Shown: positions 4,123 through 50,355 of the stretch, piece after piece
How positions within the stretch are numbered: the stretch's first letter is position 1
How the letters are laid out: each line of letters starts with the position of its first letter
Source of the DNA: a virus
Strand: one strand, 5' to 3'
IMG/VR virus record: IMGVR_UViG_3300035663_000005
Span: 22,728 to 86,727 of that record
Length of the DNA: 64,000 bases
Made by a program: the position numbers and the translations under genes
Notes under the pieces: model-generated
What the model was told of the DNA's origin: nothing
What the model saw: only the letters and a program-made list of their open reading frames with translations
Database searches by the model: none

Positions 4123-4739
4123 TTTAACATCTCCAATGCTTGCTTGTAATCGGATTCTTTCATAACATGATAGTGTGCATTCAGTCCCTTCAGAAAGGGA
4201 AACTGTTCAACTGTGGTATAGTGTATCTTAACTTCTGGAAGGAATGCTTTCAACCTCTCTGTTAGGTATTGCTGATCCACCTCCATGTAAGCAGCATAAC
4301 CATTCACATTAACATGAACCTCAATATTTTTAATGTTCTGCTCACGAATTGTTTTCAAAGCCTCCCACACGCTACCCTCGGCACACTCTCCATCACTCAC
4401 AAGAACCCAAACCTTTCTCTTTGGATTGGCTACGGCTCTTCCTAATGCAATTGTGATGCCCAAGCCAAGACTTCCCGTTGAGCAGTAGATTTGATTAGCC
4501 TCGTCACGATGTGGATGTCCACCGTGCTTCAAAAACATCTCTTCGGCATTTATACCACGGTGCTTCTGTAGGCAAGCATATAAAGCAACGGCAGCATGTC
4601 CCGAAGACAAGATGAAAATGTCATCCTTGCCCATGTTGCCATACATTTGATCTATAATATCAACAGATGAGAAGTAACTACCTAAATGACCTAGTTTATG
4701 CTTAAATGCTATATCCAATATGATTTTCTTCAGATTCAT
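4119..4739 (-). CDS. Transketolase, N-terminal (ThDP-binding) subunit
   Basis: 206 aa. It contains the transketolase N-terminal signature: KLGHLGSYFSSVDI near the start, DIFILSSGHAAVALYACL, YCSTGSLGLGITIALGRAVA and WVLVSDGECAEGSVWEAL with the start of the ThDP/Mg motif (SDGE, the family's usual GDGE changed to SDGE), continued by VNVNGYAAYM. About one third the length of a full transketolase because the pyrimidine domain is on the following gene. The Gly-to-Ser change at the start of the ThDP motif is mild but worth noting. It lies 4 bp downstream of the RmlB-like dehydratase gene. Confidence 0.8.
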   Translation of the reverse strand: MNLKKIILDIAFKHKLGHLGSYFSSVDIIDQMYGNMGKDDIFILSSGHAAVALYACLQKHRGINAEEMFLKHGGHPHRDEANQIYCSTGSLGLGITIALGRAVANPKRKVWVLVSDGECAEGSVWEALKTIREQNIKNIEVHVNVNGYAAYMEVDQQYLTERLKAFLPEVKIHYTTVEQFPFLKGLNAHYHVMKESDYKQALEMLK

Positions 4740-4743
4740 ATTA

Positions 4744-5694: not shown

Positions 5695-5725
5695 ATTTGC
5701 CTCAATTCTACTTCTGTCATATGAT

Positions 5726-7063: not shown

Positions 7064-7069
7064 AATGTA

Positions 7070-8632
7070 TTAGTGTATTCCAAATCCCCAATCATTCAAG
7101 TTGGGAATACTATATTTTGCCACACTTTCTTTGATAAACTTATACTTATAGTTAGTAGTTAAATCTTGATCTTTGTAAATATCAGAACGAACTTTTAATG
7201 GAAAAGAGAATTCTACAGGTTGCCAAGAAAAATTGTTAACAGATTTGTCGTACTCAGTATAATCAATAACATCTGCATTGAATCTATTCTTGTTAACATA
7301 GTCTTCAATTTTCCAGTAGTATTGCTTGACGGCAACAGCCTTTTTATCAATCCATTGCAAATGAGAAATGAAGATGTTTGGAACCTGAATTGATAACTGA
7401 TTCTTTGGTACAGGAATATGCTCAGAATGCATTTGACGATTCTTAAAAACTGCTCTATTTGAATAGGAGCCTATACGATCAACCCAGTGTACTTGCCACT
7501 TTCCGTCTGTTCGTATTTGATTTTTGCCTACATATTGAATCCATTGGGTATAGAACAAAGTATCCTTATGGGCTTCAAGTATTCCTTTCAACTGCTCTTT
7601 TTTAATGTTGCCATCTATGTACTCATCTGAATCCAAGCAAATTATCTTGCTAGAGTATTTAAATGCTTCATCAAATAACATCTGTCTGGCATCAGACTCT
7701 ATTGCCAACTTATCGTTGTCCCTGTCTATTTTTAAAATACTAACAATGTTATACTTGTTTGCATTTTCTTTTAGATACTGGTAAGTTCCGTCTGTACAAC
7801 TATCCAATAAGAACACAAAAGCATCAGCATACTCCTTCCACACAGGAAGCATTTCTTTCAACAAGAACAGTTCATCTCTAGTTCTAGTAATTTGCACTAT
7901 CCAGCCATCATTAACCTTTGGTTCAATACTTTTAAAGCCATTTGCTTTTCGTGTTTCATAAATTGCTTGGTCAACACTCGCACCCACTCGCATATTATGC
8001 TGCATCAATTCGTCTTGGTTTTCTGCCCACTTATGAACTATGGGGCGACGGTTAATGTGTCGTAGAACACCCATCTGTTCAAACACTTCAGTCTGCTCGT
8101 TGTCACACCATTCAGACTTGTAATCTGGATGGTAGATGTATCCAAAGTGCTCGTACAGTTTTCTCCCAATAACAGGTAGAGTGATTAGAGTCTTAAATCC
8201 GTCTGCTCCCTTTTGCTCTAGACGAGGATCATTGTTATAATTCAAAGATCCATTGGTATCGGGAAATTCTTTAGCCATATCTTCGGCTATGATATCGTCC
8301 CAACCATTTTCAACAGGCTCCATATCATCTGCTGTAGAAATCAAAATATCCCAAGGAGTGCTTGGAATATTTCGGTTTATTGCAGATATCTTCCCATTCT
8401 TCTCCCCGTAGAAATAAAGAACCGAGCACATATCAGTCTTAGGTAAGTTGTCCAAAAAGTGCTTGATTCTAGGATTGTTTAGGAGTAGATCATCAGAATC
8501 CATGCTGATTACATAAGTGATCTTATGCTTACCTGATGCCTTTTCCATATAGGCACGAAGGTTGTTCATAAACTTACCTGGTCTCTGACGAGTTGGGTAC
8601 TTTAAAAGAAGATGCTTCTTATCGCTTTGCAT
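7070..8632 (-). CDS. Two-domain glycosyltransferase (fusion)
   Basis: About 520 aa from ATG at 8632 (GGAAAG eight bases upstream). The N-terminal half (LLLKYPTRQRPGKFMNNL, SMDSDDLLLNNP, ISTADDMEPVENGWDDII, GYIYHPDY) is homologous to the whole protein at 9217-9906. The C-terminal half (ITRTRDELFLLKEMLPVW, FLLDSCTDGTYQYL, KIICLDSDEYIDG) is a GT2-type, WaaE-like GT-A domain with a DSD metal motif. So a stand-alone GT has been fused in front of a GT2 domain. It overlaps the preceding GT2 gene by 14 bp. Acceptor unknown; membership of the glycan island suggests that it builds a surface glycan or decorates virion or DNA. Confidence 0.7.
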   Translation of the reverse strand: MQSDKKHLLLKYPTRQRPGKFMNNLRAYMEKASGKHKITYVISMDSDDLLLNNPRIKHFLDNLPKTDMCSVLYFYGEKNGKISAINRNIPSTPWDILISTADDMEPVENGWDDIIAEDMAKEFPDTNGSLNYNNDPRLEQKGADGFKTLITLPVIGRKLYEHFGYIYHPDYKSEWCDNEQTEVFEQMGVLRHINRRPIVHKWAENQDELMQHNMRVGASVDQAIYETRKANGFKSIEPKVNDGWIVQITRTRDELFLLKEMLPVWKEYADAFVFLLDSCTDGTYQYLKENANKYNIVSILKIDRDNDKLAIESDARQMLFDEAFKYSSKIICLDSDEYIDGNIKKEQLKGILEAHKDTLFYTQWIQYVGKNQIRTDGKWQVHWVDRIGSYSNRAVFKNRQMHSEHIPVPKNQLSIQVPNIFISHLQWIDKKAVAVKQYYWKIEDYVNKNRFNADVIDYTEYDKSVNNFSWQPVEFSFPLKVRSDIYKDQDLTTNYKYKFIKESVAKYSIPNLNDWGFGIH

Positions 8633-9233
8633 ATTGTATACTTTCCGATGTTCTGTCATCATATTGATAGTAGTGAAGCACTTTATCTAGGTGAGTTTCG
8701 CTTGTAACAAACGGATACATTCGTGAACACCAATCAATATCCTCTCCGTATGAAACTGCTCGGAACGGAATGTTTTTGGCAATCTTGCTTGCCCACACGC
8801 ACATATGATATGGAGGACGCTTAATATCTCCTAGTGTTCCATCAGGATTGTGCTTAAGTCCTTCGTGAGGATTTCCCATACGGAAATCAACCTTGAACTC
8901 CTTACCATTTACCGTGCAATGCTGTTCAAAGGTAATCACATCCGCAGGGTTATTTCTCAAGGTTTCAATTAAAGTTGAGATATAATCTTCAGATACGGCA
9001 TCATCATCATCCAAGAAAGCAACCCACTTACCTCTAGCAGATTGAATCAAAGCCTGACGCTTTTCTCCGATGCTCATGCTCTTATTGTCTACAAGAGTTA
9101 AAACCTCAACGCAGGTCTCATTTCCAATTTGTTCCAACAAACGATTGTAAGTTGGAATCAGACACTTCTCAAGACGAGAAGGAATAGAAAGAATCAGAAC
9201 ACTTAGTAAAATTTGATTAGGAGGCGTTGGCAT
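8619..9233 (-). CDS. Glycosyltransferase family 2
   Basis: 204 aa. LLSVLILSIPSRLEKCL opens the GT-A fold, then VDNKSMSIGEKRQALIQSA and KWVAFLDDDDAVSEDYI supply the nucleotide-sugar/metal-binding Asp cluster (DDDD), and YGEDIDWCSRMYP resembles the ED catalytic-base motif of GT2 enzymes. It overlaps both neighbours (17 bp with 9217-9906, 14 bp with the fusion GT), which indicates a compact co-translated set of three glycosyltransferases. Substrate not predictable. Confidence 0.75.
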   Translation of the reverse strand: MPTPPNQILLSVLILSIPSRLEKCLIPTYNRLLEQIGNETCVEVLTLVDNKSMSIGEKRQALIQSARGKWVAFLDDDDAVSEDYISTLIETLRNNPADVITFEQHCTVNGKEFKVDFRMGNPHEGLKHNPDGTLGDIKRPPYHMCVWASKIAKNIPFRAVSYGEDIDWCSRMYPFVTSETHLDKVLHYYQYDDRTSESIQYAKR

Positions 9234-9906
9234 CTTGAGTTAAACCGAAACCGGCTTCCTTTCTTCTATTATAAACTGCGTTATCATGGGCGTACAGTTC
9301 TCGGTTCTCGTTACGCATATACAACGCATCTATTCCAATCTCTATCCAAAAGTGGCGAATGATAACGCGGTCAATATAAGTTGCTTTTCTTAGAATTCTG
9401 CTGACATCAGTAAACTCATTGTCAGGAAACACACTGATGTATTCAGGATTGTAGATATAACCAAATCTTTCAAAATACTTCTTACCAAAGATGCAAAGAG
9501 TATTTAATCTCTCGCCCTGCTTGCCGTCATTGTAATGTAGAACACCATCACCATCAGGATAGTAGGTCTGCATATCCTGCATGATAATATCATCGTATCC
9601 ATGAATCTGAGGAATCATATCGTCTGATGCAAGCAACATTACATCATAATCGCCTGCGTGTTCTAAATCAGCATTAATGGCTTCTATCTTGGTTTTTGAA
9701 TTGCCCCAAAATGCTTTAACCAAATCGCCTTGCTTGGCAATCCAGTTACGCATACCAGGATTGTTCATAGTGACATCATCAAGATCAAACGAGCATAAAA
9801 ACCTAACATCGTGCTTACCGGATGCCATATTCTTATAGAGATTAAATACCTCCATGAACTTAGCCGGACGCGATCTGCTTGGTAACTTAATCAGAAGTTT
9901 CGCCAT
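9217..9906 (-). CDS. GT-A-like glycosyltransferase, stand-alone paralogue of the fusion N-domain
   Basis: 229 aa. [51 protein letters not shown] and FGYIYNPEYISVFPDNEFTD line up along its length with the first half of the protein at 7070-8632. The DLDD and SDD acidic clusters and overall order suggest a GT-A nucleotide-sugar fold, though the family is not one I can name. It overlaps the unknown gene at 9887-10186 by 20 bp and starts the glycosyltransferase trio. Confidence 0.6.
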   Translation of the reverse strand: MAKLLIKLPSRSRPAKFMEVFNLYKNMASGKHDVRFLCSFDLDDVTMNNPGMRNWIAKQGDLVKAFWGNSKTKIEAINADLEHAGDYDVMLLASDDMIPQIHGYDDIIMQDMQTYYPDGDGVLHYNDGKQGERLNTLCIFGKKYFERFGYIYNPEYISVFPDNEFTDVSRILRKATYIDRVIIRHFWIEIGIDALYMRNENRELYAHDNAVYNRRKEAGFGLTQDANAS

Positions 9907-10186: not shown

Positions 10187-11219
10187 TGGTGTTTGCTCCT
10201 TCCTGGTCAGAGCCATACTTGAACTCTTTGGCTGCTGCTGTTTCCAAAGCCTTCATCACTTCTTCGGTGAAATACTTGGTTGGATTCTTCACAATCTGGC
10301 TTTCGAAGGCGGTTGTGCCGTTTGGCAATTCAATCTTGGTGGAAACCTTCTTGAACACTCCCTGCTTCAGAGCAAGGTCAACCAAACCGTAGTATCGGTC
10401 AAGTCCCTTATCAAAGGTTAGAAGAACATCAATCATCTTATTCTCTCGGGTAAGACGACCCTTGTAGAGTTTGCAATGAACAATATTGCCAACCACTTCG
10501 TCATCCACCTTGTGCTTCTTCTTGGAAAGATACACGATGGTTGAAGCCGCATACTTAAGTCCTGTGCCACCACCCATCTCCTTGGTTGGCACATACGCAC
10601 CCACTACCTCGTAGGTGTGATTGGTGACAATCATAGGAATGTTATGCAGACCCAACTTCAAGGTAAGCACACGGAACGCACCCTTGATAACCTGAGCGCG
10701 AGTCATGTCTCGCACTTCCTTGCCTTCCAAGGTATCGTTGGTTTCCTTAGAAGTGCTCAACATTCCGAGCGAGTCCAACACCACAAAGAACGGCTTACGC
10801 TTCTTCTCGTCCAACTTACCGTAGTTGTCGATGATTTGCAGCAACTGATGACGGAACTGCTCCACGGTTGCCACAGGGAATACGGCAACGCGATTCGGGT
10901 CAAGTCCGCGTGACTTAATCATATCGCTAGTTACAGCCTGTTCGGAGTCAAAGTAAAGAATCGCTCCTTCAGGATTATCGTTCAAGAACTGTGCGGCGAT
11001 ACCCAAAGCAAAATAAGTCTTGCCTGTGGCAGACTCGCCTGCGATACCTAGAATCTTGTTGTTGGCAATACCGCCAGTCAGAGAGCCTGACAGAAGAGCG
11101 TTGAAAGAATACGAGCCAGTATCCACAAAGCCCGTGATATCTCCTTCAACTCCATCTTCGGCTAGCGAAGCAAACTCATTACCTGATGCACGAATCATAC
11201 TCTTTAAAAAGTCACTCAT
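10155..11219 (-). CDS. uvsX: UvsX RecA-like recombinase
   Basis: 354 aa. Walker A is GESATGKT at 61-68; Walker B-type FFVVLDSLG and the RecA core continue with [16 protein letters not shown] and [16 protein letters not shown]. UvsX coats single-stranded DNA and drives strand exchange for recombination-dependent replication in T4-like phages. The C-terminus is acidic ([17 protein letters not shown]), as in other RecA/UvsX proteins. A well-formed sigma70-type promoter lies just upstream within the end of the small gene at 11246-11413, so uvsX can be transcribed separately from the polymerase operon. Confidence 0.95.
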
Positions 11220-11239
11220 TGTGTATTCTCCATTGTGTT

Positions 11240-11268
11240 ATTGTATCACACTTTTTGTTTCCAGTCAA
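11240..11268 (-). promoter_or_regulatory. Sigma70-type promoter of uvsX
   Basis: On the reverse strand TTGACT, a 17-bp spacer and TACAAT lie 20-50 bp before the uvsX start. It overlaps the 3' end of the small upstream gene. It would let host RNA polymerase transcribe uvsX and the downstream island early. Confidence 0.7.
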
Positions 11269-11413
11269 GTCTTTTAAGAGCGTCCCTCACTCTTTTCCGT
11301 TTTTCTCGTAGTTCATGTTCATGGTATCGTTTATCTTTAATGTGTTCGGTTATTATGTGAAAAACCACTAATATTGTAAAACATAAACTAGTTATAAAAA
11401 TTATTCCATTCAT
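11246..11413 (-). CDS. Small single-pass membrane protein
   Basis: 55 aa. Its ATG overlaps the polymerase stop codon (ATGA), a strong sign of translational coupling to gp43. Residues 4-21 (IIFITSLCFTILVVFHII) form one hydrophobic segment, followed by a highly charged tail rich in Lys, Arg, Glu and His (KDKRYHEHELREKRKRVRD). Likely an inner-membrane peptide with a cytoplasmic basic tail. No family recognised. Confidence 0.6.
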   Translation of the reverse strand: MNGIIFITSLCFTILVVFHIITEHIKDKRYHEHELREKRKRVRDALKRLDWKQKV

Positions 11414-13947
11414 GTCCATGTGAACAAGCCTTCTAGACTGCTAACTTCTCGCATCTGCCACCCGATTACATTTAAGATTGCGTTCAGAGGTTCTTCGAAC
11501 GACTTCTCAAATTGAGTGTCATAGTCTATGTATTTCGCCTCTAGTCCAAACTCCTTGGGAATTCCGGCTGAAAAAGAAATAACCTTGTCACGAATCGGAT
11601 TGGGAACTCGCAGATAAACATACTTAATTTTCTCACCATCGCCAATTTTAGGATATCGCTTTCCTAAATCCTTTTCACGAAGCCAATGGTTATACAATAA
11701 GGCTCCCTTAACATGAAGCGGAGTAGACTTGCGATAGATGGTGGTGTCATCCCGATACTCTTTCAATCCGTTGCATCCACGCGGGAACGCAATTTCTTCC
11801 ACCGAACGAGCAAAGAAGTCAGTCTTAAACTCGGCAACATATTCTCGCAATTCAGATTCTTTGCCCACCATGATAATACCGATGGCTTTCTTTAAAGCAT
11901 CACGAACAATCTCAGGGGTGCTACTCTTCGCGGTTTCAAGACCCATGATTTTAGTTTCAGGCTTGCTCAAAAGAACATCATCTTCTCCCATCCAAATGCT
12001 CAACATGTAACGCTTCTTGGCTGTCCAAATGCCCTTGGAAGAAATGCCTTCTCGCTTCATTCTCATCTTTTGAGCGTAGGCGTTCTGTTGTTCTGCAAGA
12101 GCAGCGTATTGCTTATCAATGAACGGCTGCAACACCTCGTTGCAGAACTTGTTCAAGAACTTTGTAATCTTTTGTGGGTCAGTTTCGTTGGGCATCACTT
12201 GCTTTACAAGCGAGCCTAATCGCAGATATACGGAATCGGTATCTGATGCTATCACATAATCGACTCCTGTGGTCTTCAGGGTTTTATTCAAGAATCCATT
12301 CAAGCCGTTCTCAATCCAACGAATGGATACCTGTCCTGAGATGGTGATAGCCTCGGCAATCTCTTGGTCGTAATAGCGGAAGTATTGATTGCCGCAAGCA
12401 CCGAATGCCGAGTTCAATTGAATCTTACGAACCAACTGAAAGTTGTGGAACTTTGTAATGTCAAGTTTTAGTTGTGCTTCCTGTTCAGGTGTAGGATTCA
12501 CAAGTTTCTTTAAAGCGGCTTTGGCTTCCAACATCTTCTTCTTGAAAGCCTTGCGTTCCTCATACATGGTTTCCATAAGTTTCGGCAAGAATCCTTGTGT
12601 ATCCTTGCGAAACGCTACACAGTTTCCTGCTACACTAAGATTCTTGGCTCGCATGTTATCAAGATAATCTCTCGCGCCTGCGCTCGCACCCGCGCCCGCG
12701 AGGAAGTCGTTCACACTAAACTTGTTGCGAGTTCCTGCATTAGTCTTGGTTTCAGGAGACAGATTGTATTGCATGATAAGATGCGGATACAGCGAGTCCA
12801 AGTCAAAACTCACAACCCAATCGTGCGCTCCAACGATAGGGTCTTTCACATACGCACCTTCAAACTTATCTTCCTTGTCTTCCGCATTTCCCTTCATGGG
12901 AATCGCAATTCGCTTCTTGGTTAGGTGATGGTAGATGATGGCATCCCATGTGCGAACCTGCGAGAACACATCGTTCAGATTCACCTTGGCGGAATACGCA
13001 AGTGCTAGAGCAAGTTCCATCAGTTTAAGTTTGTTCTCAAGCATTCCTACAAGTAGAGTATCGTGGTGATTATACTCCATGAATCGTTGGAAATCATTCT
13101 TGTAGAATTCTGCTAGAGTCCCATCGTAGTGTTTCTTGCGCTCGCCCAACTCCACCCAAACAATATGGTCAAGTTTATAGGTTTCGCGGGTCACATAAGT
13201 GAACTTACGATACAGGTCAAAGTAGTCCAAGGTAGCAATACCTAGCAGGTCATACACCTCGTTCTTCTTGTTCATTACTTCCACTTCGCGGGAACGAATC
13301 TCTCGCCAAGGAGAAAGACGCATGGCTTCCTTCTCGTCAAACAGGCGAGTGATACGATTCACAAGATACGGAATATCAAAGAAGTTGACATTCCATCCTG
13401 TCACAATGTCTATATCCATTGCTTCCCACGCTGCAAGGAAGTCTCGCAACATGTGCTTCTCATCGTCGTATTGGAAACACTTGGCATCAGGAATGTTAAA
13501 CTCACCCAATCCAAACACCAACACCTTGTTTCCCACCTTCAGAGTGATGGCGTTCACTCGTTCGGTTGCAGTCTTGATGGACGGAAAGCCTCCCTCGCAT
13601 TCCGTCTCAATATCAATAAAAGCCACCTTTAGTTTAGACGGGTCGTATTCCACTTCATTCGGAAACGCTTCACCAATGTATTGATACAACCACTCCGTAT
13701 TTCCAAATATTTCAAAGCCTGCCACTCCCTTGTATTCGTTGATGAAATCCTTGGAATCGCGGATGGAACCAGGCTTGAAAGGCTCAACATACTTGCCGTC
13801 AAGAGTCTGCCACTCAGTCTTTTTACCCTTCGCAGGCACAAACAAAGTAGGCATGAACGGAACCTTTTCGGCTATCCGCTTGCCGTTCTCGTATCCACGA
13901 TAAAGGATATGAGAACCTCTAACAGCAACATGGGTGTAAAATTTCAC
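11410..13947 (-). CDS. 43: Family B DNA polymerase (T4 gp43-like)
   Basis: 845 aa, slightly shorter than T4 gp43. The 3'-5' exonuclease motifs are FIDIETECEGGFPS, TGWNVNFFDIPYLVNR and YNHHDTLLVG. Polymerase motif A is DLDSLYPHLI near residue 380, motif B is KIQLNSAFGACGNQYF, and motif C is IASDTDSVYLRLG near 567. It replicates phage DNA with the gp45 clamp, loaded by gp44/62. It overlaps the GroES-like gene by 4 bp. An Ala/Gly-rich stretch (LAGAGASAGARD) just after motif A looks like a lineage-specific insertion. No intein or intron interruption is visible. Confidence 0.97.
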   Translation of the reverse strand: MKFYTHVAVRGSHILYRGYENGKRIAEKVPFMPTLFVPAKGKKTEWQTLDGKYVEPFKPGSIRDSKDFINEYKGVAGFEIFGNTEWLYQYIGEAFPNEVEYDPSKLKVAFIDIETECEGGFPSIKTATERVNAITLKVGNKVLVFGLGEFNIPDAKCFQYDDEKHMLRDFLAAWEAMDIDIVTGWNVNFFDIPYLVNRITRLFDEKEAMRLSPWREIRSREVEVMNKKNEVYDLLGIATLDYFDLYRKFTYVTRETYKLDHIVWVELGERKKHYDGTLAEFYKNDFQRFMEYNHHDTLLVGMLENKLKLMELALALAYSAKVNLNDVFSQVRTWDAIIYHHLTKKRIAIPMKGNAEDKEDKFEGAYVKDPIVGAHDWVVSFDLDSLYPHLIMQYNLSPETKTNAGTRNKFSVNDFLAGAGASAGARDYLDNMRAKNLSVAGNCVAFRKDTQGFLPKLMETMYEERKAFKKKMLEAKAALKKLVNPTPEQEAQLKLDITKFHNFQLVRKIQLNSAFGACGNQYFRYYDQEIAEAITISGQVSIRWIENGLNGFLNKTLKTTGVDYVIASDTDSVYLRLGSLVKQVMPNETDPQKITKFLNKFCNEVLQPFIDKQYAALAEQQNAYAQKMRMKREGISSKGIWTAKKRYMLSIWMGEDDVLLSKPETKIMGLETAKSSTPEIVRDALKKAIGIIMVGKESELREYVAEFKTDFFARSVEEIAFPRGCNGLKEYRDDTTIYRKSTPLHVKGALLYNHWLREKDLGKRYPKIGDGEKIKYVYLRVPNPIRDKVISFSAGIPKEFGLEAKYIDYDTQFEKSFEEPLNAILNVIGWQMREVSSLEGLFTWT

Positions 13948-20874: not shown

Positions 20875-20902
20875 ATACTACCACGAACTCAGGAGAAGTC
20901 AA
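20875..20902 (-). promoter_or_regulatory. Sigma70-type promoter of the gp45-44-62-regA operon
   Basis: Reverse strand: TTGACT, 16-bp spacer, TAGTAT (or TATACC with an 18-bp spacer), ending about 28 bp before the gp45 start. It overlaps the last codon of the upstream protease gene. The arrangement resembles the other early promoters in this window. Confidence 0.6.
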
Positions 20903-21753
20903 GCACTAGGTGGAAGTAATTCTCCTTGATTGTGTCGTAGCAGTGTCTCTTTTAAAAACAAGGCTGGCACAGAATATATTTGCCAATTACGGCAGTTTAG
21001 CATAACCACTACACCAATGCAAGCCCCGGAGTCTGCACGATACAATCCGCCGCCTGAGGAGCCTGGAGCACCATCAGCATCTGTTTGATAATAATAAGGT
21101 AGATGCTCGGATAGTGAACCCCGGCTCCTGTGATTGTTTCCAATGATACCGCGAGTAATGCTCATGTAATCCGACGATGGGTTTCCCATGATGTATACAG
21201 GCACTCCCATTCGTGGAGTAGCATAATCAAACCTGCATCCTTTAACAAGAGCGGTCAATGGTTTATCGTTTGCCACCTCTAGGATGGCTAGGTCATATTC
21301 TGGATCGTTGAATACCAATTTACAAGTTTCTTTACTTATTGGAGACTCTAACTCTCCTGCAAACAGAGTAACTTCTATCTTTTTTGTTCCCCATGTTTTA
21401 TCATTAGATGATGCGTCTTCAGAAAAAGAAGGAAACATAGGAACAAAATCTATTTCCACATAATTATCAGGAAAAATACATCTTCTAGTTTTAACTTGTT
21501 CTTCATCTTCAATCACATGTGCTGCTGTGAGCACATACAACTTGCCGTTCTTGCGATATGCAATGCCAGAACCAAGAGGCACACCGTCGTAGTGGACAAC
21601 GGCATTTGCTCCCACGATACTTTCCACAACCTGTTGGTTGTAACTATTGCAATCGCAATTTGCTGATGAATGGCAGGATACTTGTCCTGCTGTAAGCACG
21701 CTTGCAAGCGTTAGTAGCACGCTCGCCATGACCAAACTCCTCGGTCTACGCAT
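20899..21753 (-). CDS. Exported trypsin-like serine protease
   Basis: About 284 aa from ATG 21753 (GGAG six bases upstream), which gives a signal peptide with basic start MRRPRS and hydrophobic core VMASVLLTLASVLTAG; a start at 21729 (GAGGAG upstream) is also possible. Catalytic residues are His79 (LTAAHVIED), Asp154 (EYDLAILEV) and Ser233 (GAPGSSGGGLY), the S1 chymotrypsin fold also seen in DegP/HtrA, without a PDZ domain. Cys pairs after the signal peptide (SANCDCNSY) suggest a periplasmic or outer location. Unusual for a phage; could attack host envelope proteins or process virion proteins. A TATAAATA late box lies about 105 bp upstream. Confidence 0.8.
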   Translation of the reverse strand: MRRPRSLVMASVLLTLASVLTAGQVSCHSSANCDCNSYNQQVVESIVGANAVVHYDGVPLGSGIAYRKNGKLYVLTAAHVIEDEEQVKTRRCIFPDNYVEIDFVPMFPSFSEDASSNDKTWGTKKIEVTLFAGELESPISKETCKLVFNDPEYDLAILEVANDKPLTALVKGCRFDYATPRMGVPVYIMGNPSSDYMSITRGIIGNNHRSRGSLSEHLPYYYQTDADGAPGSSGGGLYRADSGACIGVVVMLNCRNWQIYSVPALFLKETLLRHNQGELLPPSA

Positions 21754-21766
21754 ACGCGGCTCCAAT

Positions 21767-42273: not shown

Positions 42274-43530
42274 TTACCAGGTGTAACGCATTTCGGTGGG
42301 CTGTAGGCCGAACTTATCCAAGAACGAACCTAATCCAAGTCCACGAATTGCTCGACTTAAAATTGCCGCAAAGATTGAAACTACTTTACGCAAAGCCTCA
42401 ACAAACTTTTTAAATCCTTCTTTAACATATTGATAACCTTTCATGCCTGCGTTAACCACATTTTGTTTTGCGGTTTTCAACCAATCGCCCAATCCTTCAT
42501 TGAAACATTGCATGTAGTATTCGTAGTTCTGTTCCAACATCATGCCGTCGAACGCTTCATCTAGTTCGCCTGCATCTCCTGCTTTCTGAGCGAAGTCTAA
42601 TCGGAACGCAATGCCACGAGAACCGCCACCGCTCTTGCTGCTCTTTCTTCCACGGTCACGCAAACCGAACTTGAAGCGAGGCAACATGTGGTCAATGAAT
42701 TCGTCTGCATCCATAAACTTAATGCTGCCGTCATCAAACCATTCCAAGAAGTGAGTGGCTATAAAGTCAGGTTTGTTAAATCGTTTTTCACCTGTCGCAA
42801 ACTCACGAAGTAGTTTCTTGCGATTCTCATTTTTCAACATGAACTTGGTCATTTCAATTGTTATCTTTTCACGAACTCCAATCAAATCCAAGAATTCGTT
42901 TATCTGTTCTAGTTCGCGGTCGAACGGAACTCCTGTTCCACTCTTCAAGCCAGTGACCACACTTATCAGGCGGTCAAATTCATCTTTACCATATTTGGTT
43001 TCAAACTTCTTGCGAGTCTGCTTGTAGACTGTTTCGTTACCGGTTTGAATAATAATGTTAGAAATGGTTTTAGCAATTTCTGCACCTTCTGTTTTTCCAA
43101 AGGTTGCGTTAAGCACCGCGTAGATTTCGTTGGTTTGTGCGGAAGCAATTTGTGCTGCTGCTCCGTTTTTAACCGAGGAGCAATACTTTTTGCCGCTCTG
43201 ATTTAAGAACACAATATCGGTTTTTGGTTCGCCACTCTTAATACTCTTGCCTGGCCCACCTTCCGTGTATGCAGCAGTAATTACCGAAGTGGGTGCTCGC
43301 CCTGCCATCTGCCAAGCCAAGCGAGGCTTGCCAATCTTTTTAACCAACTCTTTAACGCAAGACTTAGCCGCAACTTCCGCTGCTTTGCTTTGATACTTTA
43401 GTCCGGTAGCACGACTTTTTCCTTCGCTTGAAATTTCATTGAACGCCTTCGTCAAGTCCATTTCAAATTTGGTGGAATTGATAGACTCTGTTAGGTAGAG
43501 TTCTCCAAGTAGTCCGGTTAAAGTCTTCAT
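42274..43530 (-). CDS. Capsid-targeted protein with PD-(D/E)xK-nuclease-like core
   Basis: 418 aa. MKTLTGLLGELYLTESIN gives possible prohead-protease cuts after LLGE and YLTE. Residues 102-121 read PKTDIVFLNQSGKKYCSSVK, i.e. Asp105 plus S-x-K (119-121), the spacing of a PD-(D/E)xK active site, followed by NGAAAQIASAQTNE. The C-terminus has an amphipathic to hydrophobic stretch FVEALRKVVSIFAAILSRAI. First (promoter-proximal end is uncertain) of nine tagged genes. Probably packaged in the head and injected; a nuclease against host DNA is one option. Confidence 0.55.
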   Translation of the reverse strand: MKTLTGLLGELYLTESINSTKFEMDLTKAFNEISSEGKSRATGLKYQSKAAEVAAKSCVKELVKKIGKPRLAWQMAGRAPTSVITAAYTEGGPGKSIKSGEPKTDIVFLNQSGKKYCSSVKNGAAAQIASAQTNEIYAVLNATFGKTEGAEIAKTISNIIIQTGNETVYKQTRKKFETKYGKDEFDRLISVVTGLKSGTGVPFDRELEQINEFLDLIGVREKITIEMTKFMLKNENRKKLLREFATGEKRFNKPDFIATHFLEWFDDGSIKFMDADEFIDHMLPRFKFGLRDRGRKSSKSGGGSRGIAFRLDFAQKAGDAGELDEAFDGMMLEQNYEYYMQCFNEGLGDWLKTAKQNVVNAGMKGYQYVKEGFKKFVEALRKVVSIFAAILSRAIRGLGLGSFLDKFGLQPTEMRYTW

Positions 43531-43555
43531 ATCGGTATTTATTCTTTCTGCGTGA

Positions 43556-44503
43556 TTATGCCAATATTGATACTAGTGCGTTAAATGCTTTTTCTGTGGC
43601 ATCAACGCTTGTGAAGAACTTTCGGAAGTGACGCATGAATATTGCTTTATCTTCCTTCTTCCAATCCCAAACGGTTGTGTGCTCATCCGAATTGCTCCAT
43701 TCTGGATCTTCCCCGTATCCTCCTGGCGCGTTCTGCATCATGGCAACAAATCCTCTCAAAGGCACATAAACCTTGCAACGAATCGGCTTATTACTTAAGC
43801 GAAGCACTTCCTCTTCATCATCAACGCTTCCCATTACTGCATTAAGTATATCGCTGCTTGCTTTGCCGTCAAACAGAGTTTCTTGTTTGGTTAACTGTGC
43901 TTCCATGACTGCCATAACGCGAGACTTGTTGGTGCGTTCACGAACATATTTTACCGATATTTTACCAAATGTTTCGGCAACTCTAAATGTTGTTGACCAT
44001 GATTGTCCTTCATACCTAGAACTGTAGGTCATATCTCCAATCAGGTAAGTGCTGCTGCCAGTAAATGCAACATCTTTAAACTTCACTCCCTTAAAGTCAA
44101 CCATACCTAATGTGGTTCCGCGATACGCTTCACCATCATACCAAGTCCAAGAAGCACGAGACGGACAAGCAAGCAATTTTTTCAATGCTAGTTTTACTGA
44201 ATTCATGTCACTTTGCGAACGATTTGAATCTATAGAAACTTTGAAATGCTCTCCGATATTTACTGCTGCCATCCAAATTTCTTTTGTTAGATTTGGTGCA
44301 GCAGGCGCAAACTTTTTGCGATACTCTTCGTATGCAACTCTTATTTTCAAGGTTTCAATCATCGCGTAATCGTAACGAACCGTTTCAAATCTTTCGTAAC
44401 AGAAATACACCAACTCCTTTAACGGTCTAACCATAGGTTGACGCAGCCACCAGCAGATGCCTTCGTTTGGAGCCTCTTGAAGATAGTTGGTGAAATCTTT
44501 CAT
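43556..44503 (-). CDS. Capsid-targeted ADP-ribosyltransferase (Alt/Mod-like), copy 1
   Basis: 315 aa. Tag MKDFTNYLQEAPNEG with probable cut after YLQE. ART motifs: AYRGTT with Arg128, QSWSTTFRVAETFG with the S-W-S at 168-170, and DEEEVLRLSN with ExE at 230-232, the R-S-E triad of arginine-specific mono-ADP-ribosyltransferases. The region ACPSRASWTWYDG before the Arg is conserved in all four paralogues. T4 carries Alt in the head to modify host RNA polymerase; this is a smaller protein without Alt's long N-domain. Overlaps the next gene by 4 bp. Confidence 0.75.
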   Translation of the reverse strand: MKDFTNYLQEAPNEGICWWLRQPMVRPLKELVYFCYERFETVRYDYAMIETLKIRVAYEEYRKKFAPAAPNLTKEIWMAAVNIGEHFKVSIDSNRSQSDMNSVKLALKKLLACPSRASWTWYDGEAYRGTTLGMVDFKGVKFKDVAFTGSSTYLIGDMTYSSRYEGQSWSTTFRVAETFGKISVKYVRERTNKSRVMAVMEAQLTKQETLFDGKASSDILNAVMGSVDDEEEVLRLSNKPIRCKVYVPLRGFVAMMQNAPGGYGEDPEWSNSDEHTTVWDWKKEDKAIFMRHFRKFFTSVDATEKAFNALVSILA

Positions 44504-45297
44504 ACGGAATATTTACTTACCTTTTTCTCAAAGTGTTTCCACAAGTTGCTTGTGCTCATTCGTTTTAACGCATCTTCTCCGGTAATTTTAGCAAGACGAG
44601 TTTTGAATGTTTTAATATCTCTTTCGTCTGCATTCCCTATACTGAAATCTACTAGACTACCCCATGCGCTCCATAGGGAAACATAAGCACGAACCTGTAT
44701 TGGTGTGTTGCTTACACGAAGAATTTCTTTCTCTTCGGTGTGAGCAGATATCTGACGAATCACATCAGGTGTTAAGAAAGTTTCTTGTCGTTTAACACGA
44801 TGCTCAATTATGATTTGGATGGCATCTTCAGTAAAAGAAGGTATTGTGTAGTTTGTAAATTGTTGTGCCACCCTAAACTCGTAACTCCACGATTGAATCG
44901 GATGCTCTGATTTATAAGTTCCCGTCGCCACAAGATATTCCACACCGTTAAATTCAACCAATTCTCCTGTAAACTTAAATTTCTCGGCAAGATAACGAGA
45001 AGTCTTATTAAGCCCACGCCAAACTGGTATGCCATCAAACGAGTAAGTCCAGTTTGCACGATTCTTACATTTACACATTTCAAGTATAGCATCGTGAACA
45101 CTAGGTTTTCTTATGCTTGAATCAAAATAATAAATCAACGCGCTTGAGTATTTTTTCAGTGAACCCATACCAGAAGAAACAGGATGTTTAGCCATATCTA
45201 CAAACGCTTCTTCTGTTGGCTGAGACAGCAATTCACAGATGGTTGGCCCCTTTGTCGTTTTGGTGGCTTCTTGAAGATAGTCTATGAAATCTTTCAT
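44500..45297 (-). CDS. Capsid-targeted ADP-ribosyltransferase, copy 2
   Basis: 265 aa. Tag MKDFIDYLQEATKTTKG, nearly the same as copy 1. ART motifs: PVWRGLNK with Arg94, QSWSYEFRVAQQF with S-W-S at 136-138, EEKEILRVSN with ExE at 189-191. Preceded by NRANWTYSFDG. Shortest of the four. Overlaps both neighbours by 4 bp, so all are co-translated. NAD is the expected donor; target unknown. Confidence 0.75.
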   Translation of the reverse strand: MKDFIDYLQEATKTTKGPTICELLSQPTEEAFVDMAKHPVSSGMGSLKKYSSALIYYFDSSIRKPSVHDAILEMCKCKNRANWTYSFDGIPVWRGLNKTSRYLAEKFKFTGELVEFNGVEYLVATGTYKSEHPIQSWSYEFRVAQQFTNYTIPSFTEDAIQIIIEHRVKRQETFLTPDVIRQISAHTEEKEILRVSNTPIQVRAYVSLWSAWGSLVDFSIGNADERDIKTFKTRLAKITGEDALKRMSTSNLWKHFEKKVSKYSV

Positions 45298-46181
45298 GTT
45301 AACTTCTCGTTTGTGTTCACAGTAATCTTACCGTTATCCCATCGTGCTGTCCACTTTGCGGTTTTAACAAGCGAGTCCCAAATCTTTCTGGCTTCGCGTG
45401 TGTAGATGTTTGAGCGTTTCGGGTCTGTCCACTTTCCTGTTGAAGGCGAATACCAATACGCAATTTGATATTCGGTAATGGTATTCTTGTCATCGGTAAG
45501 ATGTCCGAAAATTCTATACGGGTATATGCCGTTCGTCGTTTTGCCTTGGTATTTTGCAGTAACTTTCTCAGGCTCTGCAATGATATGCAACACTTCAGGT
45601 ATACTGCCATAACCCTTCTTCAATGTTTCAACTATACTTTCCACATTCCACTTTGCGTTTTTAATTTCACGGTCTGTCATCTCGGTGATAGGTTTACGCA
45701 TGTGTGAAGTCAAGTCAAGCATCACCACCGTAGGATTAATGCCGTTCATAAACGCAATATCCATTCGCGTGTTGCCTGCAAGAACTCGCATATCTCCTTT
45801 AGGAAACTTCACCACGATAGGCATGTCTACCGGCTTGCCTGCCTTTATAAGTTTCTCTAAATCTTTAAGTGTATCTTCATTTCTAAACTTTGGAAACGAA
45901 CGATATCCTGAGATAAGGTCTAGTAGTTCTTCCATGTCTCGGGTGCGACTGCGATTGTGAATCTTACGGTCGGTAGCAGAATCAATCTGCATCGTGGGAG
46001 CAGACTTTACCGCTTTCAGAAACTCTGCTTCGGTTGGAAAAATGTTTCTAGGCAACTCGTGAATCAGATGCTTTAGATACTCAATCTGATATTCTTTGCG
46101 AATGCTAGCATCGCTTGGGCGAACCCAATTGCCGCGTTTCGCTTCACTCAAAACTTCTCGTAGTTGCCAGTAGTCTTTCAT
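45294..46181 (-). CDS. Capsid-targeted protein with ParB-like domain
   Basis: 295 aa. Tag MKDYWQLREVLSEAKRGN with possible cuts after QLRE and VLSE. Residues about 115-150 contain PIVVKFPKGDMRVLAGNTRM, then DIAFMNGINPTVVMLD, the ParB/Srx-type pattern (G-N-T-R in place of the common G-x-x-R). The C-terminus has TREARKIWDSLVKTAKW, related to the AR-x-x-W helices in this genome. First 28 bases of the gene are identical to those of 46183-47331. ParB-fold proteins can be NTP-binding clamps, nucleases or kinases; which applies here is unknown. Confidence 0.6.
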   Translation of the reverse strand: MKDYWQLREVLSEAKRGNWVRPSDASIRKEYQIEYLKHLIHELPRNIFPTEAEFLKAVKSAPTMQIDSATDRKIHNRSRTRDMEELLDLISGYRSFPKFRNEDTLKDLEKLIKAGKPVDMPIVVKFPKGDMRVLAGNTRMDIAFMNGINPTVVMLDLTSHMRKPITEMTDREIKNAKWNVESIVETLKKGYGSIPEVLHIIAEPEKVTAKYQGKTTNGIYPYRIFGHLTDDKNTITEYQIAYWYSPSTGKWTDPKRSNIYTREARKIWDSLVKTAKWTARWDNGKITVNTNEKLT

Positions 46182-46182
46182 A

Positions 46183-47331
46183 TTATTTTTCTCGCAACAA
46201 AGTCTTGTAAATATACGCTACTGCTTCACTATCATTACGAACTGCTGATACGAGAGTTCCTTTGGTGAGAATAAACTTCGCTTTAATTGGAGCATTAGAT
46301 ACACGAATCACTTCCTCTTCAGAAGAACCAATTCCAGCACGAGCCGCCAATTTTCTTGAAGCCCGTTCACTAAGCATGCGCTGCTCTATAGGAACCTCTG
46401 CGGAAACTATCACAGGAGCAGAACCAGATACTTTTCCGGTTCCAGGCTTAGGCATTACTCCTCCTGAAATTCCTGAGATGTGTAACTCGGCTTCAGGAGA
46501 ACCACTACCACCAGAGCCAGCCCCTCTTGCAAAATTTTTAGCGACAGCAATACTTCTTGTCCAAGATTGTGCTCCAAGTCTGCTCTGATAGATTCCCTCG
46601 GCGTGTAAGTCGTTTCCGACTCGTTTCCACCTTAACTCTTTAAGTTTATCCCAAGACATAGTTTTGCCGCGATATAAAGTTCCCTTGAAATCTGCCTTTG
46701 TCCAATCGCCTCGTGTTGGACACGCTTGTATTGCTTTAAACACTCCTAGCACCGAGGCTTTACCGCGACCCATTAAATCGGAACCAAACCAATCATTAAA
46801 TGCTGTTTCAATTTTAACGGCTACAGATTCAAGCGTTTTCATTCCGTCTAAAATCCACGCATCTAATAACTCTTTAGTATTATCGTTCCAAAGATATGAG
46901 TCTTTAAGTCCGTCAATCACATACACCATGTCATCAAGAGATAAACTCACGAAGTCGCATATGGTGACACCTGAGAAATTGGGAAATCCTAAATTATCCT
47001 TTTTGCCTTTACTTAACTTGGTAAATATCTTTTTGTCTTCTGGGTCAAATTGGTAATCACTAGGATTGAGTTTTTTTGGTTTACTTGAGTTACCCGATTT
47101 ACTTGAGTTCTTGTCAAGTCCGTATTCTCGTATAATTGTTTCAGCCCATAATTCGCTCCATTCCGCCCCGCCTGTTATCCCGCCTGGAGTCCAGCCACCC
47201 CGAAGTTTTTTAGCCAAGGCTGCATCTCCTCCAAACTTTCTACTCCATTCTTTCCAGTATGCATCCCAAGACTCGTTTACGAGTTTGCTTGAACCCTTCA
47301 ACTCTTCTCGTAGTTGCCAGTAGTCTTTCAT
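46183..47331 (-). CDS. Capsid-targeted ADP-ribosyltransferase, copy 3
   Basis: 382 aa from ATG 47331 (AGGA seven bases upstream; a GTG two codons earlier is disfavoured). Tag MKDYWQLREELKGSS. A unique domain at about 98-135 (DKKIFTKLSKGKKDNLGFPN, FSGVTICDFVSLSLDD) is shared with copy 4. ART motifs: TLYRGKTMSWD with Arg221, GAQSWTRSIAVAKNF with S-W-T at 256-258, SEEEVIRVSN with ExE at 338-340. A Gly-rich loop (RGAGSGGSGSPEAE) lies between S and E motifs. Longest of the four. Confidence 0.75.
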   Translation of the reverse strand: MKDYWQLREELKGSSKLVNESWDAYWKEWSRKFGGDAALAKKLRGGWTPGGITGGAEWSELWAETIIREYGLDKNSSKSGNSSKPKKLNPSDYQFDPEDKKIFTKLSKGKKDNLGFPNFSGVTICDFVSLSLDDMVYVIDGLKDSYLWNDNTKELLDAWILDGMKTLESVAVKIETAFNDWFGSDLMGRGKASVLGVFKAIQACPTRGDWTKADFKGTLYRGKTMSWDKLKELRWKRVGNDLHAEGIYQSRLGAQSWTRSIAVAKNFARGAGSGGSGSPEAELHISGISGGVMPKPGTGKVSGSAPVIVSAEVPIEQRMLSERASRKLAARAGIGSSEEEVIRVSNAPIKAKFILTKGTLVSAVRNDSEAVAYIYKTLLREK

Positions 47332-47333
47332 GT

Positions 47334-48275
47334 TCACTTCCTCTTACCAATGATATTGAAGATGTGGTCAATCTGCTCATCGTTGTGGGTTACAGTTTCT
47401 AACATTCCTCGTGTAACCGTAAACTTTGCTCGGATAGGTTCTGTGGAAACACGAAGCACTTCCTTTTCGTTTAATCCGTGGTGTCCTAACGCTGCTTGAA
47501 TTTTATCAATCATATAAGGATTAAACATGCAATCTTTCGCTGGAATGTTGGCTTGAATAATCACAGGAAGAAATCCTGTTATATTTCTTCCGTATACCTC
47601 TTCCTCTCTTGCATCACTCCAACCTGTTGGTATTTCTAAATCCATATCACTCATAGCACCTTCATTCCCTGCGGCAAATTTTTTTGCTACCTTTGGGTCT
47701 ATGGTCCACGATTGCATTGCTAGTTTGCTTTGATAGATTGCGGTGCATTCTAGATTCTTACCTACAAGTCGCCACGGCATACTCTTGAATTTATCCCAAG
47801 AAATTCGTTTGCCGCGATACAGGATTCCGCCTGAGAATCGTGCCCAATCGCCTCGTGTGGAACACGCTTTAATATCACGGAACACTTGCACCACTGAAGA
47901 CTTGCCGCCACCCATCAAAACATCTCCGAACGCATCCTCAAACGCTTGTCGTATTCTGTCCGTCATTCCTGTGAGAGCATTCCAACCGCGAACCTTGTAA
48001 TCCGAGTAGTTTACGAAATTATCGGTTTGTTCTTTAGAACCTTCTCCGTCTGTAGCCTTAAGCATCCGACAAAAATCTTCAAGGTTTAGAGAAATCAAAT
48101 CACAGAAAGTTACGCCGGTAAAATCAGGAATGCCATTCTCATCTCGCTTGCCTTTGCTAACCTTAAGCAATATCTTTTCATCGGTGGGATGAAATCCTTT
48201 AACATCATATTCGCGCTTCAGTTTAATTTTCTGAGCGGCGGTTAGATCTTCGCGTAGATACCAGTAGTCTTTCAT
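47334..48275 (-). CDS. Capsid-targeted ADP-ribosyltransferase, copy 4
   Basis: 313 aa. Tag MKDYWYLREDLTAAQ with probable cut after YLRE. Shared domain with copy 3: DEKILLKVSKGKRDENGIPD, FTGVTFCDLISLNLEDF. ART motifs: ILYRGKRISWD with Arg154, AMQSWTIDPKVAKKF with S-W-T at 189-191, NEKEVLRVST with ExE at 270-272. Overlaps the following gene by 4 bp. Confidence 0.75.
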   Translation of the reverse strand: MKDYWYLREDLTAAQKIKLKREYDVKGFHPTDEKILLKVSKGKRDENGIPDFTGVTFCDLISLNLEDFCRMLKATDGEGSKEQTDNFVNYSDYKVRGWNALTGMTDRIRQAFEDAFGDVLMGGGKSSVVQVFRDIKACSTRGDWARFSGGILYRGKRISWDKFKSMPWRLVGKNLECTAIYQSKLAMQSWTIDPKVAKKFAAGNEGAMSDMDLEIPTGWSDAREEEVYGRNITGFLPVIIQANIPAKDCMFNPYMIDKIQAALGHHGLNEKEVLRVSTEPIRAKFTVTRGMLETVTHNDEQIDHIFNIIGKRK

Positions 48276-49060
48276 GTGATGATATAATTTTCCGCTTCGG
48301 CTCTTGTTTTAAGCATCTTAAATGTTCTTGATTGACGAGCACTGTTGGGCGCATACAACTCTAGTTGAATTTTCATCTCGCCAGGTATCGTGGCAAGAAT
48401 TTCACGAACCGCCAATCTTGCGGCAAGTTTACTTGTGCCTTCTAAAGATATCCAAGAGTCGGAGTGCCGTCTTCCGTAAACTTTAAACCAGCCTTTATCG
48501 TAAACTCGTCGTTGCAGCGGAAAGCAAAGATCTATAACTTCATTTTGAATGAGTTCTTTAATATGATGAGGTTCTAGTTTTTCGCCGTCCTCAAGATCGA
48601 ATTTTGATTCAAAATACTCTGTGTCGAAATGCGATTTGTTTTTAAGGTATTCGTCTAACCCTTGCTCCATTTCACTGTTTGAGATACCGAATCGCTGCGG
48701 TTTATTTACAATCTGTGTGGTATGATATCCGTCGCTATCATGGAAGAAAGTGAACCATTGATTAGAGGCATGCCACCAGCCTGCACGATCTTTATCCCAC
48801 GGAAACGGAGTCCGAGTGGGCTTTGCTATGCCAAGTTTTTTTAATCGTTCAAGTTTTTTTAGAGCCGCTGCATCTCTACGCTGTGCGGCTGCAATCATGG
48901 CTTGACCGCGTGGACTGCGCTCAAACTTTAAACGCAACTCGCGCTCGCGTGGAGTTTCCACATGCCCGCCTCGTGGTTCAAATGCGTTCGGGTTGGTGTA
49001 GATGCCCAACAGTTCATCTAGTTGTCGTAATTCGGTTAACAGTTCAGATAAGGTTTTCAT
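48272..49060 (-). CDS. Capsid-targeted protein of unknown function
   Basis: 262 aa. MKTLSELLTELRQLDELLG fits the tag pattern with a possible cut after LLTE. Then a basic helix (PRERELRLKFERSPRGQAMI), WWHASNQWFTFFHDSDGYHT and GWFKVYGRRHSDSWISLEG. The last 40 residues (RTFKMLKTRAEAENYIIT) look like a small beta-alpha unit. Sits among the ART genes with a 4-bp overlap. Function unknown. Confidence 0.55.
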   Translation of the reverse strand: MKTLSELLTELRQLDELLGIYTNPNAFEPRGGHVETPRERELRLKFERSPRGQAMIAAAQRRDAAALKKLERLKKLGIAKPTRTPFPWDKDRAGWWHASNQWFTFFHDSDGYHTTQIVNKPQRFGISNSEMEQGLDEYLKNKSHFDTEYFESKFDLEDGEKLEPHHIKELIQNEVIDLCFPLQRRVYDKGWFKVYGRRHSDSWISLEGTSKLAARLAVREILATIPGEMKIQLELYAPNSARQSRTFKMLKTRAEAENYIIT

Positions 49061-49064
49061 AAGA

Positions 49065-49568
49065 TTACTCCCACAACATATCGTCGCCGCGATCTAGCAT
49101 TACACGACGAGTCGCTTTATCTAGCACCTGCAAGCCTGTGCCTGCGGCTTTCAGTTCCACTTCTTTACCGCTCATGCTTAGGTAAGTTTCGCGTCCCATC
49201 TTCATGGCTTTCCGGATGAACATGCTTTGCGGGCTACCATCAAGTTTTTTTCCCATGATCTCAATTTTAATCCCTACCGGCTTGATGCTGAGAGTCAAGA
49301 TCATATCTTTCGCGGTATCAATTGCAGCCTTGGTCATTTGTCGGGTAGCCGACCATGCTTTCGCGTTTCGCTTAGGAATAAGATTACCCATCGCATCAGT
49401 TTTGCGAGCCTTGAGTGGCTTCTGCGAGCCTACGAATCTTTGAGGATCATCTAGATTAACTCCGTAACCGATTGTACCTAAACCTGGTCCCTTGGGGAAC
49501 TTTGGTTTCTCGGTCAGCAAACTTAAAACCATTTCCGCGTTTTCTAAAATCTCTCGGTAGTTACGCAT
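49065..49568 (-). CDS. Capsid-targeted protein of unknown function
   Basis: 167 aa. MRNYREILENAEMVLSLLTE: a possible cut after LLTE at residue 20. The mature part is basic (KPKFPKGPGLGTIGYGVNLD, KPLKARKTDAMGNLIPKRNA, RQMTKAAIDTAKDMILTLSI). A basic packaged protein would fit with DNA binding in the head. AGGAGG lies upstream, preceded by a CTAAATA box. Confidence 0.55.
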   Translation of the reverse strand: MRNYREILENAEMVLSLLTEKPKFPKGPGLGTIGYGVNLDDPQRFVGSQKPLKARKTDAMGNLIPKRNAKAWSATRQMTKAAIDTAKDMILTLSIKPVGIKIEIMGKKLDGSPQSMFIRKAMKMGRETYLSMSGKEVELKAAGTGLQVLDKATRRVMLDRGDDMLWE

Positions 49569-49590
49569 ACGCCCGATCCTCCTGATTTAA

Positions 49591-50316
49591 TTATTTAGGG
49601 TTTTTTGTGGCGTGAAACGGAACACCTTCGCCAAACCACGCTAATTTAACATTAGTCATTTCAGGTCGGGGAGACGGCATATCGTAGAGTCTTGCTTGCA
49701 GGTCTCCGCTTATTCTGCGAGCGATACCGTTATAAATCACAGTCCTAACAGGTCGAGCGTTTGTTTTGGTTCCCCAGAAGATTCCTTGCGGTTTTTTTCT
49801 AGCCGTAAACGATTTCACAATTTCAATAATTGTACCAAAGATGCGTGTGGTGTGTGCAGTATTGTCCGCACCAATATCATCGTCTGTGCCTTTATCAAAG
49901 CCTGAGCCGTCGGTATCAATATAGGTGGCAAAGCCGAGTTCCCATAAAGACTCAAACATCGGCAGAGTTATTTTAGGTTTAATTTCCGCTGAGAAATTTG
50001 CTCTGGCTAAACTACGATTGATTCTTCGCATGCCTTCATAGGCCATTGTGCCGTGATGTTGCGTGAATGTAACCACTATTCGCTGTCTGATGCCAGGATT
50101 AGATTTTCTGTAATCTTGCAGCATGCGATCTGTGGTAGCAATTGATCTTGGCACGCCAGGAGTAAACGATGGGCCAGGATCGGGTATCCAACGATCTGTT
50201 CCTGCGAGTCTTACCGCGTCAAATCTATAGTCTTCCTCATTCCCACCTGAAACGAAAAGCCGCCACGGATAAGATCGTTCAAAGATTTCTGTAATATACG
50301 AATCAAAGTATTTCAC
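49591..50316 (-). CDS. Capsid-targeted protein of unknown function
   Basis: 241 aa. MKYFDSYITEIFERSYPW with possible cut after YITE. Later YPWRLFVSGGNEEDYRFDAV, VTFTQHHGTMAYEGMRRINR, FATYIDTDGSGFDKGTDDDI (Asp-rich, Ca-binding-like) and AWFGEGVPFHATKNPK. First gene of the tagged run downstream of the terminator at 50.33 kb. No family recognised; it might be a fifth enzyme of the arsenal. Confidence 0.55.
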   Translation of the reverse strand: MKYFDSYITEIFERSYPWRLFVSGGNEEDYRFDAVRLAGTDRWIPDPGPSFTPGVPRSIATTDRMLQDYRKSNPGIRQRIVVTFTQHHGTMAYEGMRRINRSLARANFSAEIKPKITLPMFESLWELGFATYIDTDGSGFDKGTDDDIGADNTAHTTRIFGTIIEIVKSFTARKKPQGIFWGTKTNARPVRTVIYNGIARRISGDLQARLYDMPSPRPEMTNVKLAWFGEGVPFHATKNPK

Positions 50317-50328
50317 TGAGAGTATTTA

Positions 50329-50355
50329 GAAAAAACAAACCTCCTCGCGGAGGGG
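50329..50355 (-). terminator. Rho-independent terminator
   Basis: Reverse strand CCTCC GCGA GGAGG followed by TTTGTTTTTTC. It separates the 50374-50862 gene from the tagged-effector run downstream. Confidence 0.75.

Follow-up and report, generated by a model that had tools for sequence, protein, structure and literature searches.

The 64,000-nucleotide stretch of viral DNA analysed here (the window; positions 22728-86727 of the 86,727-base IMG/VR record IMGVR_UViG_3300035663_000005, handle G000, itself a fragment) comes from an uncultured T4-like phage lineage that carries an expanded, divergent family of ADP-ribosyltransferases (ARTs) of the arginine-serine-glutamate (R-S-E) class with T4-type capsid-targeting tags. 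Four genes of this family, ART-1 to ART-4, lie together in the window. With a probability of roughly 0.74, their products are late, head-packaged, mostly gp21-trimmed and co-injected arginine-type mono-ADP-ribosyltransferases that modify host proteins. In this scheme the ARTs would be made late in infection, an N-terminal capsid-targeting sequence would direct them into the prohead, and a gp21-type protease of the phage would trim most of them after [LI]-x-E. The ARTs would then be injected with the phage DNA and, during the first minutes of infection, would modify proteins of the host with nicotinamide adenine dinucleotide (NAD+) as substrate, taking over the cell. They would do so within a cassette of nine tagged proteins, one of them ParB/sulfiredoxin (Srx)-like.

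The four open reading frames (ORFs) listed in a first-pass annotation of this DNA are all present at the positions given there, on the minus strand (Table 1). Its description of them as tandem holds for the clustering only; a ParB/Srx-like gene, which that annotation had missed, is located between ART-2 and ART-3. The five genes form a run with 4-base overlaps at four junctions, including the one with gene 48272-49060. ART-3 starts with GTG, and an ATG follows two codons later, at 47331. In all four ARTs the motifs Y/WRG, QSW and E-x-E-[VI]-[LI]-R occur in this order, a combination confined to these genes among the 118 of the record and, in related contigs, to their homologues. A chance origin of the ordered motif was dropped, as it was found in none of 20,000 residue shuffles. 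The ordered R, QSW and ExE pattern is present in 24 of 24 homologues, and the 19 that were aligned, at 19-92% identity to ART-4, all keep C, W, RG, Y, S, QSW, F, E-x-E and R. A cysteine-containing helical segment ahead of the core is common to all four ARTs, and a further segment is common to ART-3 and ART-4; of the extra N-terminal domain formerly ascribed to these two genes, only the further segment is theirs alone.

AlphaFold2 models were obtained for ART-2 (predicted local distance difference test score, pLDDT, 84.8; predicted template modelling score, pTM, 0.81) and ART-4 (pLDDT 77.1). Both place R on a strand, QSW on a strand after it, and the second E of E-x-E where a late strand begins. 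When the models were compared with the PDB by Foldseek, the Vis ART with NAD ranked first for ART-2 (expectation value, E, 3e-3; probability 1.00; runner-up 0.04), and three Vis entries headed the list for ART-4 (probability 0.95). Vis was the only convincing PDB match. Among the predicted viral proteins of BFVD, seven matches reached E<=1e-3, and the Alt protein of Aeromonas phage phiAS5 was found with probability 0.98. The two models suggest an ART fold for all four proteins. HHalign against a ModA/ModB alignment gave E ~6e-5 in one comparison (probability 65-66%), with YRG placed on the YRG of ModA/ModB and QSW on the S motif, the E-x-E falling outside the aligned stretch. The likeness in R-S-E order to T4 Alt, ModA and ModB, proposed earlier from the motifs, was borne out: the triad is invariant in the alignments, both predicted folds match those of ARTs, and neither a foreign fold nor a lost triad, the contrary findings named beforehand, was encountered. 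The products of the four genes are probably mono-ADP-ribosyltransferases that belong to the R-S-E class and have an E-x-E loop of the arginine type; their activity and arginine specificity are predicted.

Several observations weigh against this class assignment. TM-scores from Foldseek are low (for the ART matches, 0.23-0.41 when normalised by query length), and the models cover two of the four ARTs; the assignment therefore rests on fold and invariant triad together, leaning on the motif. HHalign against a T4 Alt profile was not significant (E 0.47), no usable sequence match was found in Pfam, NCBIfam or PDB, and PHROG matches were marginal (best 0.0011). T4 Alt matches PF03496 at 5.8e-36, whereas the window ARTs match no Pfam ART model; this absence is not counted as counter-evidence because T4 ModA itself matches no Pfam model. 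A weak Pfam match to Apo-CIII (E 0.012) was judged to be due to chance. PHROG 16619, 'minor head protein', was matched by 4 of 19 members, two of them window proteins, in the R-to-S region (best 0.0011) and was not relied on.

An ART fold would also suit another job, namely modification of nucleic acids or of a host-defence complex, NAD+ depletion, or action against co-infecting phages, all compatible with packaging. Phage ARTs are functionally broad (PMC9503650), and AcrIF11 is reported to modify a CRISPR complex (PMC12421852). The partners, ParB/Srx-like in the window and HNH, zincin-like and zeta-toxin-like in relatives, also recall those in polyvalent proteins. This is considered rather unlikely, since E-x-E, the arginine-protein type, is kept in all 24 sequences, structures of Vis, the best solved match, include one with agmatine, an analogue of arginine, and a PADLOC search gave no match for the ARTs.

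The case for packaging starts from the N-termini. Nine consecutive genes, 42274-50316, open with M-[KR]-x-[FYL] and have [LI]-x-E at residues 7-9 or 8-10. The first-pass annotation had noted a shared tag; it had restricted the tag to the ARTs, and its likeness to capsid-targeting sequences had gone unrecognised. The tags of ART-1 and ART-2 have the canonical 10-residue form, and those of ART-3 and ART-4 the 9-residue form MKDYW[QY]LRE. The N-termini of T4 IPII and IPIII, read from the T4 record, are MKTYQEFIAE↓A (the arrow marks the cut). In the T4 sequence, residues 4 and 7 direct targeting and residues 8 and 10 processing, gp21 cleaves after [LI]-x-E, and Asp at position 10 stops processing and leaves targeting intact (PMC9026906). 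A strict 10-residue tag motif occurs at 24 N-termini among the 612 genes of six contigs and at none of 2,959 internal Met residues (Fisher 3e-14), an imperfect control, since N-termini are biased. In T4, which serves as the better control, the same motif picks out ipII and ipIII alone among ~86 genes. All 22 ARTs with an uncut N-terminus start tag-like, and 17 of them have [LI]-x-E (by eye). A secretion signal was dropped as an explanation of the shared tag because no hydrophobic stretch was seen by eye.

Genes and motifs that bear on the predicted trimming and late expression were found in related contigs. A gp21-family prohead protease is encoded on four of them (G003, G005, G007 and G008), and in G003 its gene is followed by those for gp22 and gp23. 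The gp23 propeptide is predicted to end in YLRE↓D in G003 and YLKE↓A in G005, an L-x-E form also seen in ART-4 (LRE↓D) and in ART-1 and ART-2 (LQE↓A). The T4-type late promoter has the core TAAATA, and its form in cyanophage S-PM2 is NATAAATA (PMC2984593). An element resembling NATAAATA precedes the tagged cluster in three phages, namely the window and its relatives L008 (IMGVR 3300034104) and L009 (IMGVR 3300007735), in both of which the TAAATA is kept at the same place; a second element, before the last gene of the cluster, is also kept in both. In G000, G002, G003 and G005, TAAATA is found 5-7 nucleotides before start codons in 21 cases, the two window elements being examples, as compared with 0-4 for each of four control hexamers. 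This position, combined with a T4-type late start site, predicts leaderless late mRNAs, of which no description was found in the literature searched. Scans of the cluster for sigma-70 promoters and terminators gave results near shuffled expectation and were not used.

Other findings weigh against packaging and trimming. The tag motif was composed after examples had been viewed, the T4 test being the independent check. A clear [LI]-x-E is absent in 5 of the 22 ARTs with intact N-termini (ART-3 of L008, with LKQ, and of L009, with LRK; two FxE forms in G002 and G003; one ART in G005), so that the ART-3 cleavage site is not conserved in orthologues (LRE, LKQ, LRK). As Asp-10 in T4 blocks processing only, loss of the cleavage site need not mean loss of packaging. 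gp21 was not found in G000, itself a fragment. The lost ART-3 site, together with the HHalign link to ModA/ModB and not to Alt, would suit ordinary ModA/ModB-like enzymes made after infection and left unpackaged, their tag likeness being a translation-start bias or a relic. Such enzymes are improbable: unrelated proteins carry the same tag, which is rare elsewhere in these genomes, the motif finds just the two real internal proteins in T4, the element before the cluster is of late type and conserved, and ARTs of other contigs also start tag-like wherever the contig edge spares the gene.

All four ARTs are under purifying selection, with ratios of nonsynonymous to synonymous substitution rates (dN/dS) of 0.20-0.47 against L008 and 0.26-0.39 against L009. 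These values, well below 1, speak against the idea that the tagged proteins are bulk fillers of the prohead core with degenerate, non-catalytic ART domains. T4 IPII and IPIII are indeed abundant in the core and of unclear function (PMC9026906); invariance of all signature residues over 24 sequences is unexpected for a degenerate domain, and this explanation is very improbable. A tree built from 24 ART cores places the window genes in four separate groups, each with L008 and L009 counterparts (bootstrap 90-99), and the duplications therefore predate the split from L009, whose ARTs are 53-70% identical to those of the window. Four divergent, separately kept paralogues suggest four different target sets.

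Table 1. Tagged genes, tags and late-promoter-like elements of the window (the arrow marks the predicted cut; aa, amino acids)
Feature	Coordinates	Strand	Details
Last gene of tagged cluster, 418 aa, phrog_22045	42274-43530	-	tag MKTLTGLLGE↓L
Late-promoter-like element	43535-43542	-	ATAAATAC; 4 nucleotides before gene 42274-43530
ART-1, 315 aa	43556-44503	-	R128, S168, E230-x-E232; tag MKDFTNYLQE↓A
ART-1 capsid-targeting-like tag	44474-44503	-	10 codons
ART-2, 265 aa	44500-45297	-	R94, S136, E189-x-E191; tag MKDFIDYLQE↓A
ART-2 capsid-targeting-like tag	45268-45297	-	10 codons
ParB/sulfiredoxin-like protein, 295 aa	45294-46181	-	LAGNTRMDIAF; tag MKDYWQLRE / LSE↓A
ART-3, 384 aa	46183-47337	-	R223, S258, E340-x-E342; tag MKDYWQLRE↓E
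ART-3 capsid-targeting-like tag	47305-47331	-	9 codons
ART-4, 313 aa	47334-48275	-	R154, S189, E270-x-E272; tag MKDYWYLRE↓D
ART-4 capsid-targeting-like tag	48249-48275	-	9 codons
Tagged protein, no fold assigned, 262 aa	48272-49060	-	tag MKTLSELLTE↓L
Tagged conserved protein, 167 aa	49065-49568	-	tag MRNYREILE↓N
First gene of tagged cluster, 241 aa	49591-50316	-	tag MKYFDSYITE↓I
Late-promoter-like element	50322-50329	-	CTAAATAC; 5 nucleotides before start codon of 49591-50316
Separate small tagged gene, 96 aa	32207-32497	-	MKSFKQYIRE↓E
Separate tagged gene outside cluster, 189 aa	37314-37883	+	MKSFRTFLNE↓Q

The ParB/Srx-like gene of the cluster keeps GNTR and shows a weak match to ParB chains (E 0.06-0.08). 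In L009 (9113-10402, plus strand) a ParB-like protein and ART-2 are fused in one ORF. At the junction the fusion has MKLTEAAETETEPTICELL where the separate gene reads MKDFIDYLQEATKTTKGPTICELL; the inner tag has become shorter, and an L-x-E↓A site (LTE↓A) remains. It is possible that this fusion is a packaged polyprotein cut by the prohead protease. ParB-like relatives are tagged in L094 and L097 and untagged in L103 and L105, and in L101 (608-6667, plus strand) the domain lies within a 2,019-residue protein having a Mu-type portal domain. The presence of the family inside this portal-fused protein lends support, separate from that of the tag, to delivery of the partner by way of the head. The L101 protein also holds pyridine nucleotide-disulphide oxidoreductase and zeta-toxin domains. 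On a wider view, for which we see about even odds, the tag would address a modular arsenal, with arrays of up to six ARTs per phage and ParB-like, HNH, zincin-like and zeta-toxin-like proteins assembled by tag acquisition, and with the L009 polyprotein perhaps cut by the protease into two effectors.

Tagged or tag-like genes were also seen elsewhere. In L075 (5430-12804, plus strand) a further long run of tagged genes surrounds a single ART and includes those for a 457-residue protein and a short HNH-like protein. L052:13583-14452 (plus strand) encodes a zeta-toxin-like protein of the P-loop type (PF06414 at 2e-5) with the tag MKTFKHYLEE↓K. In the source record outside the window, a protein encoded at 11001-13652 (L007:2-2653, minus strand) starts with MEVKKLSQVITE↓A, which is tag-like and outside the strict motif; its domains are cytidylyltransferase-like, RimK ATP-grasp and zinc/aspartyl-protease-like.

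Among the systems known, T4 ModA and ModB share the R-S-E signature and are small single-ART proteins in adjacent genes. ModA and ModB are not packaged and are made after infection; the window ARTs have a tag, which with the late-promoter-like element points indirectly to packaging, and they differ further in an N-terminal helical domain, an R-to-S spacing of 35-42 (24 in ModA), QSW in place of SxS, and no P-x-G after E-x-E. T4 Alt is a head-packaged, injected ART with a short N-terminal propeptide that begins MELITE and is cut by gp21 (PMC9026906); unlike the window ARTs it has 682 residues, a large N-terminal region and an STS motif. It is the one packaged ART of T4, at ~40 copies per head, whereas the window record has four tagged ARTs. 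The expansion beyond one packaged ART, noticed in the first-pass annotation and taken there to suggest several targets in the host or an arms race against its hydrolases, extends to related contigs, with six ARTs in G002 and two each in G003 and G005. The T4 IPII/IPIII tag agrees with the window tag at positions 1, 2, 4, 7, 8 and 10, and the late, head-internal delivery of these proteins is what is predicted for those of the window; the window cargo differs in being partly enzyme-like and in forming an array of nine tagged genes. Vis (PDB 4xzj, 4xzk, 4y1w) is likewise of the R-S-E arginine type, but is a bacterial protein and not a phage internal protein, with 14-16% identity and low TM-scores. 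Polyvalent proteins and MuF-ART head proteins share with the proposed scheme the notion of ART and ParB-like effectors delivered by the head (PMC5512222, PMC9503650). The former carry two to fifteen disparate domains per polypeptide and ARTs of the H-Y-[EDQ] type (PMC5512222), whereas the window proteins are separate and individually tagged, each with a single recognisable domain; two occur together only in the L009 fusion.

Beyond the cluster, the window has genes for T4-type replication and for 17 tRNAs; its gp43 DNA polymerase is ~50% identical to those of marine cyanomyophages. L008 has an identical gene order, with ARTs at 92-98% identity to those of the window. Further scans added ART relatives in L014-L019, L073, L075, L078, L082 and L083; two sub-alignments were used where conservation over the whole alignment was too low. 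Megablast of 22 kb and tblastn with ART-1, ART-2, ART-3 and one G002 ART gave no credible relative among the 50,697 phage records searched, and one GTDB genome scan with ART-2-type sequences found none. At 268-9906 of the window, the ORFs read as a sugar-nucleotide and glycosyltransferase-like cluster adjoining UvsX and gp43. An ORF at 20899-21765 (minus strand) resembles, by eye, a serine protease of the trypsin type (GSSGGG) that bears a signal peptide.

Each ingredient is already known: Alt as a packaged ART and the functional range of phage ARTs (PMC9503650), polyvalent proteins (PMC5512222), and RNAylation by ModB with its R-S-ExE (PMC10468400). For their combination in a new, divergent R-S-E family, ART expansion together with capsid-targeting tags, a limited literature search found no earlier description. 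Besides a single packaged ART, T4 injects a few small internal proteins, mostly without known use. Here the same delivery logic has seemingly been scaled up to a tagged array with several divergent ARTs, its genes having no described relatives. If this is true, injected effectors could be read from the tag sequence in T4-like phages, including many proteins without a database match. The lineage would also offer several ARTs for a comparison of targets, and natural capsid-targeting sequences beyond those of T4.

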